64,000 nucleotides of DNA. Origin: an uncultured Alcanivorax sp. Its GTDB lineage: Bacteria > Pseudomonadota > Gammaproteobacteria > Pseudomonadales > Alcanivoracaceae. The translations under genes were made by a program, and so were the position numbers. Positions within the stretch are counted from its first letter, which is position 1, and every line of letters begins with the position of its first letter. The notes beneath the pieces are model-generated. The model saw nothing but the letters and a program-made list of their open reading frames with translations, searched no databases and had not been told where the DNA came from. The stretch is from the NCBI GenBank assembly GCA_913055795.1, contig CAJXLA010000002.1:21420-85419 (forward strand). Reading direction: 5' to 3'. Positions 15,391 to 64,000 of the stretch are shown in pieces.

Positions 15391-15409
15391 ACGATTTCAC
15401 TGGAATAGA

Positions 15410-15512
15410 GTCGAAAGTCGAAAGCCGAAAGCCGCAAGCCGAAAGGAACAAGAATGGGCGCCGGTGGCGCCATTCGTTATTTCTTGCTACTTGCCGCTTG
15501 CCACTTTCGACT
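15410..15512. repeat. heptad-arm repeat 2
   Basis: Left arm: GTCGAAA twice, GCCGAAA, GCCGCAA, GCCGAAA (15410-15444). Core hairpin: GAATGGGCGCC / GGCGCCATTC with loop GGT and one bulged G (15452-15475). Right arm, read on the minus strand from 15510: GTCGAAA, GTGGCAA, GCGGCAA, GTAGCAA. The two arms are approximate inverted copies, so the whole can fold into a long interrupted stem. It follows the 3' end of the SH3-domain gene. Confidence 0.8.
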
Positions 15513-17231: not shown

Positions 17232-17413
17232 GGCAGGCTGTTGATAAATTCGTTGCGCTGTCAGCGTGGCCTGAAGCGTGCAGCTGATGCGCACGGGCGC
17301 GACGGGGCAGGGTGGTGCCCTTTCCGAGCGACCCGATGCAGCAGATGGGCGCTTCCGGCCGTGCCTCTCGCGGGTTTCACGCTGGTTCGCAACGAGTTTA
17401 TCAACAGCCTGCC
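17232..17413. repeat. TAGCAGG-family palindromic element, full copy B (182 bp)
   Basis: Ends GGCAGGCTGTTGATAAA and TTTATCAACAGCCTGCC are inverted copies that extend a further nine bases inward (TTCGTTGCG / CGCAACGAG) with a single mismatch. It fills most of the divergent intergenic region between yciB and rnm, so any promoters for these genes must lie within or at the edges of it. Its interior has no reading frame of note. Confidence 0.85.
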
Positions 17414-21166: not shown

Positions 21167-21238
21167 CAGGCTGTTGAGAAACCCCTTGCGTACTCAGGCT
21201 TTCAGGCTGGTTCGCAAGGGTTTCTCAACAGCCTGCCA
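21164..21238. repeat. TAGCAGG-family palindromic element, short copy C (75 bp)
   Basis: Left arm GCAGGCTGTTGAGAAACC and right arm GGTTTCTCAACAGCCTGC are perfect inverted copies, continued inward by CCTTGCG / CGCAAGG. The interior is only about 25 bp, so the DNA or RNA could form a near-complete hairpin. It begins with the scpA stop and ends 29 bp before the scpB start. Confidence 0.85.
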
Positions 21239-22211: not shown

Positions 22212-23049
22212 AAAACTCCAGAAGGTACTGGCCCGTACGGGCCTGGGTTCGCGCCGGCAGGCGGAAACCTGGATCCAGGACGGCCGCGTGAGCGTGGACG
22301 GCGAAACGGCCACCCTGGGCGACCGGGTGGAAGGCAACGAAGAAATCCGGCTGGATAACAAGCGCGTGCCCGTGCGACCCGAAGAAGATATCGAGCGCCG
22401 GGTCATCCTGTACCACAAGAATGTGGGCGAGGTGTCCTCGCGCAACGATCCGGAGAATCGTCCCACCGTCTTCGATCATCTGCCGCGCCTGCGCGGCGCG
22501 CGCTGGGTCCAGGTGGGCCGGCTGGACATCAACACCTCCGGACTCATGCTGTTCACCACGGACGGCGAGCTGGCGCACCGGCTCATGCATCCCTCGAATG
22601 AGTTTGTCCGCGAATACGCCGTTCGGGTGCGCGGCGAGATCACCGAGGACAAACGCGAAGCCTTGCTGAAGGGAGTAGAGCTGGAAGACGGTGTATCGAG
22701 CTTTCGCTCCGTCGAGGACGCCGGCGGCAGCGAGGAAGGGGCCAACCACTGGTACAAGGTGACGCTGATCGGCGGCAAGTACCGCGAAGTGCGGCGCCTG
22801 CTGGAATCCCAGGATCTGGACGTCTCCCGTCTGATCCGGACACGGTTCGGCGATGTGGAGCTGCCGTCCAATCTGCGCCGGGGACGCTGGATGGACATGC
22901 CGCCGGAACAGGTTCAGCAACTGGTATCCCGGGTGGAGCTCAAGAGCAAGCACTACACCGGCCTCTACGGCCGGGCCCGCCTCAAGCACCAGAAAGGCAA
23001 TCGGGGCGGCCCGCCGCGCAAGCCCAGACGCGGGCCGTACCGGAAGTAG
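22204..23049 (+). CDS. rluB: 23S rRNA pseudouridine(2605) synthase
   Basis: The protein has 281 residues. An N-terminal S4 RNA-binding domain (KLQKVLARTGLGSRRQAETWI) is followed by the RsuA/RluB catalytic domain with the nucleophile D108 in GRLDINTSGLM. The Lys/Arg/Gly-rich C-terminal tail (KHQKGNRGGPPRKPRRG) is typical of RluB rather than RluE or RluF. It overlaps the end of scpB by 8 bp, so translation is coupled. The TAG stop begins a heptad repeat and a terminator follows. Confidence 0.94.
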   Translation: MSEKLQKVLARTGLGSRRQAETWIQDGRVSVDGETATLGDRVEGNEEIRLDNKRVPVRPEEDIERRVILYHKNVGEVSSRNDPENRPTVFDHLPRLRGARWVQVGRLDINTSGLMLFTTDGELAHRLMHPSNEFVREYAVRVRGEITEDKREALLKGVELEDGVSSFRSVEDAGGSEEGANHWYKVTLIGGKYREVRRLLESQDLDVSRLIRTRFGDVELPSNLRRGRWMDMPPEQVQQLVSRVELKSKHYTGLYGRARLKHQKGNRGGPPRKPRRGPYRK

Positions 23050-23190
23050 CAAGGCGCAAGGGGCAAGGGGCAAGGGGCAAGGGGCAAGGAGCAAGGAATC
23101 AAGCGGGCGCCTTCGGCGCCCTTGTTTTTTGCCTTGTTCGGAAGGTGCGCACGGCGCACCCTACGACTACTCGCGCCTCGCCCCTCGCGC
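23046..23190. repeat. heptad-arm repeat 3 between convergent rluB and the methyltransferase-like gene
   Basis: Left arm from the rluB stop: GTAGCAA, GGCGCAA, GGGGCAA four times in perfect tandem (23060-23087), GGAGCAA. Right arm, minus-strand reading: GCGCGAG, GGGCGAG, GCGCGAG (23170-23190). Between them are the rluB terminator and a palindrome GGTGCGCACGGCGCACC (about 23145-23162) followed by CTACG, the same core as at 26473-26527. Confidence 0.8.
23105..23130 (+). terminator. intrinsic terminator of rluB
   Basis: GGGCGCC, loop TTC, GGCGCCC then TTGTTTTTT. It is a strong Rho-independent terminator 56 bp after the rluB stop and lies inside heptad-arm repeat 3. Confidence 0.9.
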
Positions 23191-23917: not shown

Positions 23918-23985
23918 GAGACCTCCCCGGGACTGTTCTGGTAAACGCCAAGCTTAGCAACTGACGACTACCGGCAAAATCGGCA

Positions 23986-24157
23986 GGGCAAAGCCGAAAG
24001 ACGAAAGCCGAAAGTGGAAAGAAACACGGCGGACGCTTTAGTGCCCTTTTGCCGCGTTAACGGAACGTGCGCACGGCGCAACCCGGTTTGACACCCTGGA
24101 CCCGAAAGATCCTGCATTTGTCTTGCGTCTTGCGTCTTGCGTCTTGCGTCTTGCGTC
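23986..24157. repeat. heptad-arm repeat 4 with five perfect 7-bp units
   Basis: Left arm: GGGCAAA, GCCGAAA, GACGAAA, GCCGAAA, GTGGAAA (23986-24020). A degenerate GTGCGCACGGCGCA core lies near 24066-24081. Right arm: TTGCGTC five times without error (24123-24157), that is, GACGCAA on the minus strand, beginning at the stop codon of the DCC gene. It lies in the 239-bp gap between two minus-strand genes; nothing else is seen there. Confidence 0.82.
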
Positions 24158-25398: not shown

Positions 25399-25557
25399 TA
25401 GCAGGCTGTTGAAAGCCCCGCAGGGCCTGGCCTGAAACGTCCATCTGCTGCACTTTGTCGCTCGGCAAGGGAACCCCCCTTCCCGGCGCAACAAAGCACA
25501 CCAGCTGCACGCTTCAGGCCACGCTGAGTGCGCAAGGGGTCTTCCAGCAGCCTGCTA
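25399..25557. repeat. TAGCAGG-family palindromic element, full copy D (159 bp)
   Basis: It starts TAGCAGGCTGTTGAAAGCCCC and ends CAGCAGCCTGCTA, with TA at both outer edges and CCC outside each, compatible with a TA target duplication. It fills half of the 312-bp gap (25295-25606) between divergent rsmE and the MoxR-like gene; I see no convincing promoter in the remainder. Confidence 0.82.
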
Positions 25558-40060: not shown

Positions 40061-40807
40061 CTACAGATTCTGAACATTCAGCCGCAGTTCACCGTGGCGG
40101 CAGAGATGATCCCGGTCCTGTATGTCTACTTCACGGCCCTGAACGCGCAGAACCCCTTCGTTGTGCAGCCGGGTCATGATGCGGCTGACCGTTTCCACCG
40201 CCAGGCCCAGATAGTTGGCCATTTCATTACGGGGCATGGGCAGACGCAACTGGTGCGCGGACAATCCGCGCCGGTGAGCGCGGGCCGATAACGACAGCAG
40301 CAGGGCCGCGATCCGGTCCTCGGCGCTCTTGCGGCTGAGCAGCATGTGCAGCTCGCGGTCGGACTTGATTTCCTGACTCATGAGCTTAAAGAAGTGGCGC
40401 TGCAGCGAAGGAATTTGCAGCGACAGCGCTTCCATATGTTCAAAGGGCACCTCACACACGGATGAGGTTTCCAGCGCCTGGGCCGAGGAGGCGTAGTAGG
40501 CGGTACTGATGCCATCCATGCCTACCACCTCGCCGGGCAGATAAAAACCGGTGATCTGTTGCTCGCCTTCCTCGGTCAGGCTGTAGGTTTTGATAGCGCC
40601 GCTGCGAACGGCATAGACGGAACGGAACGGGTCCCGGGCGTTATACAGATGTTCGCCCGGTTTCAGGGAACGTCCACGCTTGAGGATGTTATCAAGCTGT
40701 TCTACCTGATCGGGCGCGACGGCCAGCGGCAGGCAGACCGCGCTGAGATTGCAATCATTGCAGGATACTGTCTGGACCAAGGGTGACTCCTTCAACCTGG
40801 AGGGCAT
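40061..40807 (-). CDS. fnr: FNR/ANR-type oxygen-sensing transcription regulator
   Basis: FNR carries an oxygen-labile [4Fe-4S] cluster and, when intact, binds TTGAT-N4-ATCAA sites. From the ATG at 40807 the protein has 248 residues. The cluster cysteines are C16, C19, C25 (CNDCNLSAVC) and C118 (SSVCEVPF). The cyclic-nucleotide-binding-like domain is followed by the helix-turn-helix with ETVSRIMTRLHNEG, which has the E--SR recognition residues. A TTG at 40780 preceded by AAGGAG is an equally good start, giving 239 residues. It follows hemN and the cbb3 cluster; FNR-type sites lie upstream of both hemN and ccoN. Confidence 0.95.
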   Translation of the reverse strand: MPSRLKESPLVQTVSCNDCNLSAVCLPLAVAPDQVEQLDNILKRGRSLKPGEHLYNARDPFRSVYAVRSGAIKTYSLTEEGEQQITGFYLPGEVVGMDGISTAYYASSAQALETSSVCEVPFEHMEALSLQIPSLQRHFFKLMSQEIKSDRELHMLLSRKSAEDRIAALLLSLSARAHRRGLSAHQLRLPMPRNEMANYLGLAVETVSRIMTRLHNEGVLRVQGREVDIQDRDHLCRHGELRLNVQNL

Positions 40808-40999
40808 GCTACCGGGAGCCCCGAACCGGTTCCGCCCATAGTACGCCGTTCCGAGGCGGCATTGAAGCATTCCGCGTGAATCTGTTGGCCCCTGTAAAAA
40901 CCGGGTTTTGCAAGGCGGGGAAGCCTCTTGAGCGCTTGGCAGGAATGAGACGGGTTCGCGCTCAGGAGTAATTCGCGGTTGCACAAGGCCGGGACAGCT

Positions 41000-42373
41000 T
41001 CAAAGAATCCGGCTGAAACGGCGGTTGGTTTCAGCTGCGCTCAGATAGCGGTCGAAGACCATCGCCACGGCGCGCGCAAAGGTGCGGCCCGTTTCCGTCA
41101 GCCGGAAGCCGTGTTCATTGATATGCAGCAGCCCTTCGCGGGCGAGTTCGTCCAGCCGCGGACACTCCGCGGCAAAATACTGCTCGAAATGCAGGCCCCA
41201 GCGGTCCTCGAAAGCCGGGATGTCGATCTCCATGTCGCACAGCAGACGAATGATCAGATCCCGCCGGATCCGATCATCCCGGCTCAGTCGATACCCGCGT
41301 TCAAAGGGAAGTTGACCTGTCCGTAGCGCATCTCCCCAGTCCTGCAGGTCCTTGTGGTTCTGCGCATAAAGATCGCCGAGCTGGCTGATGGCCGACGGGC
41401 CCATGGCGATGAGATCCGCTTCGCCGTGGAGCGTGTAGCCCTGGAAATTGCGATGCAGCGTGCCGGCGCGCTGGGCCCGTGCGAGTTCGTCATCGGGCTG
41501 CGCGAAATGATCCATGCCCACATGGATGTAGCCGGCTTCTTCCAGCATGCGCGCGGCGCGGATCTGCATGCGTAGCTTTTCCTCGGGTGAGGGCAGGGCG
41601 TCGTCGTTGATCTGGCGTTGCACCTTGAAGCGTTCGGGCAGGTGCGCATAATTGAACAGCGACAACCGGTCCGGACCCAGAGCGATGATTTTCTCCAGGG
41701 TGAGCGCCAGACTGCCTTCGGACTGACAGGGCAGGCCCAGGATCAGATCCATGCTCAGCGAATGGTATTCGTGGTCGCGGATCTCCTGGACCCGGTCGCG
41801 AATCATGGCTTCGGGTTGGATCCGGTTGACGGCTTTTTGCACCCGAGGGTCGAGATCCTGCACGCCCAGGCTTACGCGGTTGAAACCAATACCGCGCAGC
41901 AGCCCCAGGCGACCGTCGTCCACGGTGCGCGGATCGATTTCAATGGCGTAGTCGCCGCCTTCTTCGAGCAGGCGAAAGCGCCGGCCCGTGAGAAACATGA
42001 GTTCGGTGATCTGGGCGTCGTCCAGCCAGGTGGGGGTACCGCCGCCCCAGTGCAGCTGTACCACCGGACGCCGGGTATCCACGCGTTGGGCGTGCAGATC
42101 CATCTCCCGTTCCAGATCGTCCATGAAGGGTTCGCCGCGGGCCTTGTTGGCCGTGATGATGCGGTTGCAGGCACAGTAATAGCAGACGGTGTTGCAGAAC
42201 GGGATATGGAAGTACAGCGACAGCGGGCGCTGATCCGTGTTGCCCTCACGGATCACCTCGGCATAGTCGTCACCGTCGACTTGTTCATGGAACTGCAGGG
42301 CCGAGGGATAAGAGGTATAACGCGGTCCCTGCCCGCCGTAGCGACGTACCAGTTCCGGATCCCGGTTGGACAT
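41000..42373 (-). CDS. hemN: oxygen-independent coproporphyrinogen III dehydrogenase
   Basis: HemN is a radical-SAM enzyme that decarboxylates coproporphyrinogen III for heme synthesis without oxygen. The protein has 457 residues, as in E. coli. The cluster motif is C60-x3-C64-x2-C67 followed by C69 (PFCNTVCYYCAC). Also conserved: WGGGTPTWL, IEIDPRTV and GVQDLDP. GGGAG precedes the ATG. It lies between the cbb3 assembly cluster and fnr, the arrangement known in Pseudomonas. Its predicted leader is a palindromic repeat, downstream of an FNR-type promoter. Confidence 0.97.
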   Translation of the reverse strand: MSNRDPELVRRYGGQGPRYTSYPSALQFHEQVDGDDYAEVIREGNTDQRPLSLYFHIPFCNTVCYYCACNRIITANKARGEPFMDDLEREMDLHAQRVDTRRPVVQLHWGGGTPTWLDDAQITELMFLTGRRFRLLEEGGDYAIEIDPRTVDDGRLGLLRGIGFNRVSLGVQDLDPRVQKAVNRIQPEAMIRDRVQEIRDHEYHSLSMDLILGLPCQSEGSLALTLEKIIALGPDRLSLFNYAHLPERFKVQRQINDDALPSPEEKLRMQIRAARMLEEAGYIHVGMDHFAQPDDELARAQRAGTLHRNFQGYTLHGEADLIAMGPSAISQLGDLYAQNHKDLQDWGDALRTGQLPFERGYRLSRDDRIRRDLIIRLLCDMEIDIPAFEDRWGLHFEQYFAAECPRLDELAREGLLHINEHGFRLTETGRTFARAVAMVFDRYLSAAETNRRFSRIL

Positions 42374-42388
42374 AACGACTCCCGTTGG

Positions 42389-42525
42389 TAGCAGGCTGTT
42401 GAAAAACCCCTGGCGTACTCATCGTTGCCTTTTCCGGCGGGGCGGGCGTCGCCTTCAAAAGCACGCCTCGATTGCGAATCAGCCTCAAAGCCTGAGTACG
42501 TAACGGTTTTTTCAATAGCCTGACA
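42389..42525. repeat. TAGCAGG-family palindromic element, copy F (137 bp), in the hemN leader
   Basis: Left end TAGCAGGCTGTTGAAAAACC; right end GGTTTTTTCAATAGCCTGACA. GGCGTACTCA and TGAGTACGTAAC continue the inverted arms. The interior (CCGGCGGGGCGGGCGTCGCC) is related to copy H. The right edge coincides with the transcription start predicted from the FNR site at 42560-42573. The left edge is 16 bp from the hemN ATG. Confidence 0.85.
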
Positions 42526-42532
42526 GGGAGCC

Positions 42533-42573
42533 AGTATGATTCATGCAGTCTGCAACTTCTTGATATAAGTCAA
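42533..42573 (-). promoter_or_regulatory. FNR-type class II promoter of hemN
   Basis: Box TTGACTTATATCAA (minus strand, 42573-42560) differs from TTGAT-N4-ATCAA at one base. CATACT (42538-42533) is a good -10, placed so that the box is centred near -41.5 for a start at about 42525. The box overlaps the stop codon of the TauE/SafE-like gene. hemN is FNR- or ANR-regulated in several gammaproteobacteria. Confidence 0.65.
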
Positions 42574-43307
42574 TGGATCTGTGCGGGAGCGTCGTGTTGG
42601 CCGTGGTCCGCTCCGTGGTCCATGCCCTGGTGTGCGGCGGTCCAGCCCTGCCAGAGGAACCATGCGGCCATGAGCGCGGCCAGCACGGCGGAGCTTGCAC
42701 GCCAGCCCCGGCTGCGGAGCCAGCCCAGATGGCCGGTAATGACACCCGCGCCCATGACGGTGGGCAGCGTCACCAGACCAAAGACCAGCATCACCGACGC
42801 TCCGCTGACCGGGCCCGCGGCGGTCACCGCCAGGGCCAGGGCGGAATAGACCAGACCACAGGGCAGCAGACCCCAGGCCATGCCCAGGGCCAGCGCCTTC
42901 ACCGGCCGGTCCACGGGCACGAGTCTTTTCACCAGCGGCTGAATACGGCGCCAGAGCCCGTGCCCGAGGTTTTCCAGCCAGGCCAGCCCGCTCGCCCGGC
43001 CGGCAAGCGACAGTGCCAGCAGCAACATGAGCACGCCCGAGGCCAGAAACGGTGCGCCGCGCGGTACGGGCAGCGCATTCACGAGTGCGCCCCCGAAAGC
43101 GCCCACCAGGGCCCCCAGCAGCGTATAGGAGAGCACGCGGCCGCCGCTGAACAACGCCTGCCAGCCCCACAGGGCCCGCCCGGATTGCTTTTCGCGGGGC
43201 AGGGAAAAGGTCAGCGCGCCGCTGATGCCCGAGCACATGCCCAGGCAGTGACCGGCCCCGGCGAGCGCCAGCAGCGCCGCCGAGGCAAGCAGACCGGCAT
43301 CAGTCAT
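42570..43307 (-). CDS. TauE/SafE (DsbD_2-like) membrane protein of the cbb3 cluster
   Basis: The protein has 245 residues and six or more helices. Opening AGAGHCLGMCSGISGALTFSL and central GMAWGLLPCGLVYSALALAV carry the paired Cys motifs (HCxGMCG and PCG) of the DsbD_2/UreH-like group, placed where metal or thiols could cross the membrane. The C-terminal tail is His-rich (HQGMDHGADHGQHD), suggesting copper binding. It overlaps ccoS by 8 bp, so it belongs to the ccoGHIS operon. The gene in this position is conserved next to hemN in pseudomonads. The exact role is unproven. Confidence 0.82.
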   Translation of the reverse strand: MTDAGLLASAALLALAGAGHCLGMCSGISGALTFSLPREKQSGRALWGWQALFSGGRVLSYTLLGALVGAFGGALVNALPVPRGAPFLASGVLMLLLALSLAGRASGLAWLENLGHGLWRRIQPLVKRLVPVDRPVKALALGMAWGLLPCGLVYSALALAVTAAGPVSGASVMLVFGLVTLPTVMGAGVITGHLGWLRSRGWRASSAVLAALMAAWFLWQGWTAAHQGMDHGADHGQHDAPAQIH

Positions 43308-50939: not shown

Positions 50940-50981
50940 ACACTACCAAGGTTGAGCCGTGACGATCTTGATCTGAATCAA
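50940..50981 (-). promoter_or_regulatory. FNR-type class II promoter of ccoN
   Basis: TTGATTCAGATCAA (minus strand, 50981-50968) fits TTGAT-N4-ATCAA exactly. TAGTGT (50945-50940) is positioned as the -10 of a class II promoter with the box at about -41.5. The ccoN ATG is about 30 bp below the predicted start. FNR/ANR activation of cbb3 operons is well established. Confidence 0.75.
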
Positions 50982-54098: not shown

Positions 54099-54253
54099 CA
54101 GGCTGTTGAAGAACCCCTTGCGCATTCAGCGTGGCCTGAAGCGCCCATCGTTGCCATTTTTCGACGGGGCGGGCCCCGCCTTCAAAATGGCGCCTCGATT
54201 GCGAACCAGACTGAAAGCCTGAGTACGCAACGGGTTTTTCAACAGCGCTGCTA
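54096..54253. repeat. TAGCAGG-family palindromic element, full copy H (158 bp)
   Basis: It runs from the SDR stop codon: left end TAGCAGGCTGTTGAAGAACC, right end GGGTTTTTCAACAGCGCTGCTA. Inner arms CCTTGCGCATTCA and TGAGTACGCAACGG follow. The core includes GGCGCCTCGATTGCGAACC, which recurs, reversed, in the copy at 63926-64000. TA is present at both outer edges. Confidence 0.85.
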
Positions 54254-63098: not shown

Positions 63099-63677
63099 AT
63101 GAAAGTTGAACTGGCCGCCACCACACGGCTGCCCACGCCCTTCGGCGAATTCACCCTTCAGGGGTTTGTCGAGGATGATGGCGCCGAGCACGTCGCGCTT
63201 ACCCTGGGGGACGTCACCGGCGACGAACCCGTGCTGGCGCGCGTGCACTCGGAATGTCTGACCGGCGACGCCCTGTTCAGCCAGCGCTGCGACTGCGGCC
63301 CCCAGCTGGAAGCCGCCCTGGAGCGCATTCACGAGGAAGGCCGGGGCGTGCTGGTCTATCTGCGCCAGGAAGGCCGGGGCATCGGCCTGATCAACAAGCT
63401 CCGCGCCTATGCGGAACAGGACAAGGGCGCCGATACGGTCGAGGCCAACGAAATGCTGGGCTTTCTCCCGGACGCGCGCAACTACGAAGTGGCCGCCGAT
63501 ATCCTCAAGGCATTGAAGGTGGCGCCGCTACGGTTGATGACCAATAACCCGGAAAAGGTGCGCTCGCTGGAGGAATACGGCATCACCATCAGCGAGCGCC
63601 TGCCCCACAAGGTCGCCGCCACCGACCACAACCGCCATTATCTGTTTACCAAGCAGGAAAAGTTCGGGCATTTATAA
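63099..63677 (+). CDS. ribA: GTP cyclohydrolase II
   Basis: RibA converts GTP to the pyrimidine precursor of riboflavin. The protein has 192 residues. The zinc site is C-x10-C-x-C in [16 protein letters not shown]. The catalytic segment is [22 protein letters not shown] and the GTP-binding part is [43 protein letters not shown] is typical of stand-alone RibA. A TACAAT at 63054 may be its -10, with no good -35. The TAA stop leads straight into heptad repeat 5. No FMN riboswitch is seen upstream. Confidence 0.96.
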
Positions 63678-63726
63678 GACGAAAGACGAAAGACGAAAGA
63701 CGAAAGCCGAAAGCCGAAAGAAGAAA
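63678..63726. repeat. heptad repeat 5, single arm after ribA
   Basis: GACGAAA four times in perfect tandem (63678-63705), GCCGAAA twice, GAAGAAA, starting at the first base after the ribA stop. No opposite arm or core hairpin is visible before 63762. Part of the 323-bp gene-free gap 63678-64000, which holds four kinds of repeat and nothing else I can support. Confidence 0.85.
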
Positions 63727-63761
63727 GCGAGCAGACTGATAGCACGGCGGTGGCTGCAGGT

Positions 63762-63925: not shown

Positions 63926-64000
63926 TAACAGGCTGTTGAAAAACCCCTTGCGCGCTCAGGCTTTCAGGCTGGTGCGCAATCGAGGCGCCCTTTTGAAGGC
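63926..64000. repeat. TAGCAGG-family palindromic element, copy I (cut by window end)
   Basis: Begins TAACAGGCTGTTGAAAAACC and continues CCTTGCGCGCTCAGGC, TTTCAGGCTGGTGCGC, AATCGAGGCGCCC, which is the reversed inner sequence of copy H. The right half lies beyond the window. Confidence 0.8.

Follow-up and report, generated by a model that had tools for sequence, protein, structure and literature searches.

The leader of the hemN gene in the analysed window (the whole stretch of 64,000 nt, from an uncultured Alcanivorax sp.) carries a short copy of a MITE family, and the arrangement is probably explained by a tolerated, ordinary insertion of such an element into the leader of an FNR-driven gene; a regulatory role of the copy itself finds no support in the sequence. 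The coordinates that a first-pass annotation had given for an FNR-like box, a CATACT -10 hexamer and the element, all on the minus strand, were confirmed (Table 1), as was its suspicion that the element is of a mobile type.

Table 1. Features of the hemN locus (window positions).
Feature	Position	Strand	Basis and remarks
fnr/anr regulator gene, 3' of hemN	40061..40840 (start approximate)	-	NF008365 (Fnr subfamily model) 269 bits, cutoff 228; CRP-family domains
hemN, oxygen-independent coproporphyrinogen III oxidase	41000..42373	-	TIGR00538 560 bits, cutoff 325; ATG at 42373
hemN Shine-Dalgarno GGGAG	42379..42383	-	sequence; outside the MITE copy
TA flank of the MITE copy, hemN side, intact	42389..42390	-	YTAR/TA at most family ends
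Short MITE copy (133 bp) with an internal deletion	42391..42523	-	bounded by inverted repeats RCAGGCTGTTGAAAAACCC; identity to family consensus 85.6%
Predicted +1 of the FNR-dependent transcript	42524..42525	-	class II FNR geometry (box centre -41.5) and -10
-10 hexamer CATACT	42533..42538	-	21 nt after the FNR box
FNR/Anr box TTGACTTATATCAA	42560..42573	-	one mismatch to TTGATNNNNATCAA; overlaps the stop codon of the DsbD_2-family gene
DsbD_2-family membrane protein gene, upstream of hemN	42570..43307	-	PF13386, 152 bits; end of the ccoGHI cluster

The hemN locus and its FNR-type promoter

The 46 genomes of the family include about 40 with a hemN ortholog (57-60% identical), and 35 loci were examined besides the window's own; the closest orthologous hemN compared is ~60% identical to that of the window, and a search of named genomes for hemN returned just distant relatives, with identities of at most ~53%. 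The fnr gene adjoins hemN in all 35 loci and the DsbD_2-family gene lies upstream of it in 31 of them, and this shared gene order rules out an assembly artefact or a misjoined repeat as the source of the element junctions on either side, even though many contigs of this genome end in such repeats. A same-genus genome (G001) was rejected as a source of the empty site, because its sole full-length hemN is a different gene (44% identical) in another neighbourhood. This gene (L219, on contig C59) has an FNR-like box of its own and replaces the cco-linked hemN.

The window contains five FNR-like boxes with at most one mismatch, where chance alone would give 0.9, so that the box at hemN needs independent support. 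An FNR box is present upstream of hemN in 35/35 ortholog loci, and the best -10 sits 21-22 nt past the box in every one of the 29 relatives measured, four of which have the same CATACT hexamer; the distance from box to start codon in these 29 is 68-118 nt, most commonly 68-70. The locus thus combines a box near -41.5, a -10 at fixed spacing and conservation in relatives, as befits a class II FNR promoter, and footprinting across relatives lends good support to the view, already taken in the first-pass annotation, that the hemN promoter is genuine. hemN would be expected to depend on FNR in this organism too, and its +1 is predicted, from FNR geometry and the -10, to fall at the promoter-side edge of the element, at its degenerate TA-type flank.

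Elsewhere in the window, a perfect FNR box (TTGATTCAGATCAA; 50968-50981, minus strand) precedes a COX1-family (ccoN-like) gene, so that read-through from the cco cluster may also reach hemN. Intergenic short repeats of the AAAGNCG type (GACGAAAGACGAAAG..., units of ~7 bp) occur at 15409-15456, 23045-23092, 23985-24032 and 63670-63745.

The MITE copy in the hemN leader

The core of the copy, CAGGC...GCCTG, spans 42522-42392 (131 bp), or 42523-42391 with the variable terminal base, and extends to 42525-42389 (137 bp) with the TA-type flanks, leaving 15 nt (42388-42374) between element and ATG. The promoter-side flank is degenerate, reading TGT (42525-42523, minus strand) where TAR is expected, and the exact insertion event can therefore be reconstructed in part. 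The deletion junction of the copy is common to three other copies (L173, L174 and L183) and coincides with a direct repeat, containing TGAG, that the full-length MITE carries. None of the 35 family relatives examined has the element near hemN.

The element is a palindrome of 133-137 bp beginning at the predicted +1, but its pairing is imperfect: the outer arms of the hemN copy form 25 of 30 pairs, those of the family consensus 29, and the five mispaired positions show no compensatory change. Its identity to the consensus is near the low end of the family. Among the 29 complete copies longer than 100 bp it ranks last in folding energy per nucleotide, computed for the hemN strand, and third from last in the strength of its outer arms. 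The structure of the hemN copy, as far as pairing and predicted folding go, is one of decay and not of maintenance.

The MITE family in this and related genomes

The repeat family is short, non-coding and bounded by inverted repeats, and has many copies, and is thus a MITE family. The genome holds ~90 copies of 131-264 bp with consensus ends AAAAACCCG...CGCAAGGGGTTTTT; a search of the genome returned 85 matches, in many cases with both arms of a single copy counted separately, and termini within 2 mismatches of CAGGCTGTTGAAAAACCC numbered 91 + 88, against 0 for the reversed control. Alignment of complete copies revealed a full-length form of 263-264 bp and shorter ones that have lost part of the interior. 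The 35 complete copies examined all lie outside genes (gene calls around them were made with a simple codon-usage script), 9 between convergent, 8 between divergent and 16 between co-directional genes, with two unclassified at contig ends. None of the other copies has an FNR-like box within 250 bp; the hemN copy alone has one.

YTAR/TA flanks occur at most MITE ends, with TA at both ends in 16/35 copies; the hemN copy has it on one side only. In 29/35 copies the terminal bases of the two ends are complementary to each other, which favours a 2-bp TA duplication (IS630/Tc1-like) over a 4-bp YTAR duplication (IS5-like); the former would suit the family better as its target-site duplication. A search for an autonomous transposase found no DDE_3 domain (PF13358) in this genome, which is 86.7% complete, and no long terminal-repeat pair was present among the places listed for it and nine related genomes. 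Many MITEs have no surviving parent element. No copies were found in named plasmids or phages, and a literature search with the terminal repeat as a string gave no matching paper.

Other copies or relatives of the MITE in the window lie at 17234-17411, 21167-21235, 25402-25554, 54099-54249 and 63929-64000; they include a 69-bp mini form, and the copy at 63929-64000 is truncated where the window stops. In the assembly (G000) a large share of the 169 contigs begin or end inside this MITE (e.g., C41, C44, C60, C101, C116 and C143), which probably accounts for much of its fragmentation. In a related genus (g8; L079, L168 and L172) copies of 263-265 bp are ~86% identical to the consensus and number a few per genome, compared with roughly 90 here. 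Four further loci in related genera (L080, L081, L083 and L084) have the same ~250-bp interior with different ends, GGGAACCTCTGAATAACTCC replacing GCAGGCTGTTGAAAAACCC, as if termini had been exchanged between transposon families.

Why the element begins at the predicted transcription start

Joining the flanks of the element gives a reconstructed empty site, ...CATACTGGCTCCC-TACCAACGGGAGTCGTTATG, in which the box stands 65 nt from the ATG, close to the usual 68-70 nt of the relatives. Just one TA is found in this empty site downstream of the -10 and upstream of the start codon. Two other positions nearby also offer a TA, one within the -10 itself and one within the TTATG that includes the start codon, but insertion at either would damage hemN. 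TA targeting, together with a requirement that -10 and start codon survive, therefore adequately explains why the element begins at +1, and with ~90 intergenic copies in the genome it is unsurprising that one should lie at a start site.

A non-autonomous MITE inserting at TA/YTAR probably landed in the short leader of a pre-existing, conserved FNR-activated hemN promoter, its point of entry being the only TA available there. The FNR box, the -10 and the Shine-Dalgarno sequence were spared, so that transcripts made under FNR control should begin at the element edge or right beside it. The resulting mRNA would have a leader of roughly 150 nt, largely folded into a single imperfect hairpin, and its ribosome-binding site would be unaltered; that the element fills almost the whole predicted 5' leader agrees with the earlier annotation. 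After insertion the copy decayed. It has most likely been tolerated and not selected for regulation, although it may have a slight influence on mRNA stability or on read-through.

Folding of the leader and possible effects on hemN

Folded from the predicted +1, the 155-nt leader forms an imperfect hairpin of -56.8 kcal/mol (z = -2.4 versus shuffles), but z is -1.0, a small excess over shuffles, when the fold is extended into part of hemN. The predicted energy for opening the ribosome site is nearly the same with the element (6.47 kcal/mol) and without it (6.38 kcal/mol), and sequestration of this site is therefore not predicted. No match to an Rfam family was found. Conserved or compensated structure, or an effect on the ribosome site, would mark a cis-regulatory RNA leader; here the outer arms show no compensation and no change at the ribosome site is predicted. 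The first-pass annotation had gone further and suggested a structured leader controlling translation or stability. This part is not supported, as the ribosome site lies outside the hairpin with its predicted accessibility unchanged, the copy is among the most decayed and lacks compensation in its outer arms, and other copies occur in intergenic settings of every sort, unconnected with FNR sites.

5'-terminal hairpins are established stabilisers of mRNA, as in E. coli ompA and similar cases. The predicted hemN structure begins 3-4 nt from the predicted +1, and a hairpin so close to the end (within ~3 nt) could shield the FNR-induced hemN mRNA from decay that depends on the 5' end, or RNase III could cut the hairpin, and in either way hemN expression would be set; RNase III cleaves the terminal repeats of a Correia element downstream of the mtrCDE promoter (PMC10969869). 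The z-score of the leader itself points the same way, but its drop on extension into hemN, the uncompensated arm mismatches of a much decayed copy, the lack of an Rfam match and a family showing no preference for such positions speak against this reading, which we consider unlikely. The broader proposal that the MITE turned a very short FNR-controlled leader into a long 5'-terminal hairpin altering mRNA stability, and thereby added a new post-transcriptional layer to low-oxygen heme synthesis in this lineage, seems to us decidedly unlikely.

The element might also dampen hemN as a partial terminator-like hairpin, since the family consensus has an A-tract, GC-stem and T-tract at both ends, which pair at 29/30 positions. 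This is very improbable: a terminator scan found no intrinsic terminator, the intervening interior of ~70 nt is long for one, and the base of the stem in the hemN copy is broken at several pairs. That the element supplies a promoter or protein-binding site of its own, replacing FNR control of hemN, is hardly credible, for although other bacterial MITEs bear promoters or IHF sites (PMC10969869), no sigma-70-like promoter was found in 42200-42700, no sequence within one mismatch of the IHF consensus lies in the hemN copy, and the original promoter retains an undamaged FNR box and -10.

Comparison with known systems

MITE insertions as such are known, and the copy in the hemN leader is by itself ordinary. 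The hemN case illustrates how insertion of a mobile repeat into an existing leader can leave promoter and ribosome site unbroken, and why such insertions look precise: between them, target preference and selection allow hardly more than a single site. In Pseudomonas an FNR/Anr box upstream of hemN is a core feature (PMC6588701); the present locus is like it in this box and in the proximity of hemN to fnr/anr, but differs in that no element has been reported in the Pseudomonas leader. The family resembles other bacterial MITEs, both IS630/Tc1-like (TA-flanked) and IS5-like (YTAR-flanked), in its small size, lack of coding capacity, terminal inverted repeats, copy number, strictly intergenic location here and TA/YTAR flanks, whereas its autonomous partner was not found, no DDE_3 being present in the incomplete genome.

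The nearest parallel is the Correia element directly downstream of the Neisseria mtrCDE promoter, where an IHF site and cleavage by RNase III mediate its action (PMC10969869). Both features have been established by experiment there, whereas no IHF match was found in the hemN copy. If the hemN leader did alter mRNA stability, it would represent a second, independent case of the same arrangement; as it stands, the likeness is one of layout, with a MITE of similar size lying between promoter and gene and, here by prediction, forming a hairpin in the transcript.
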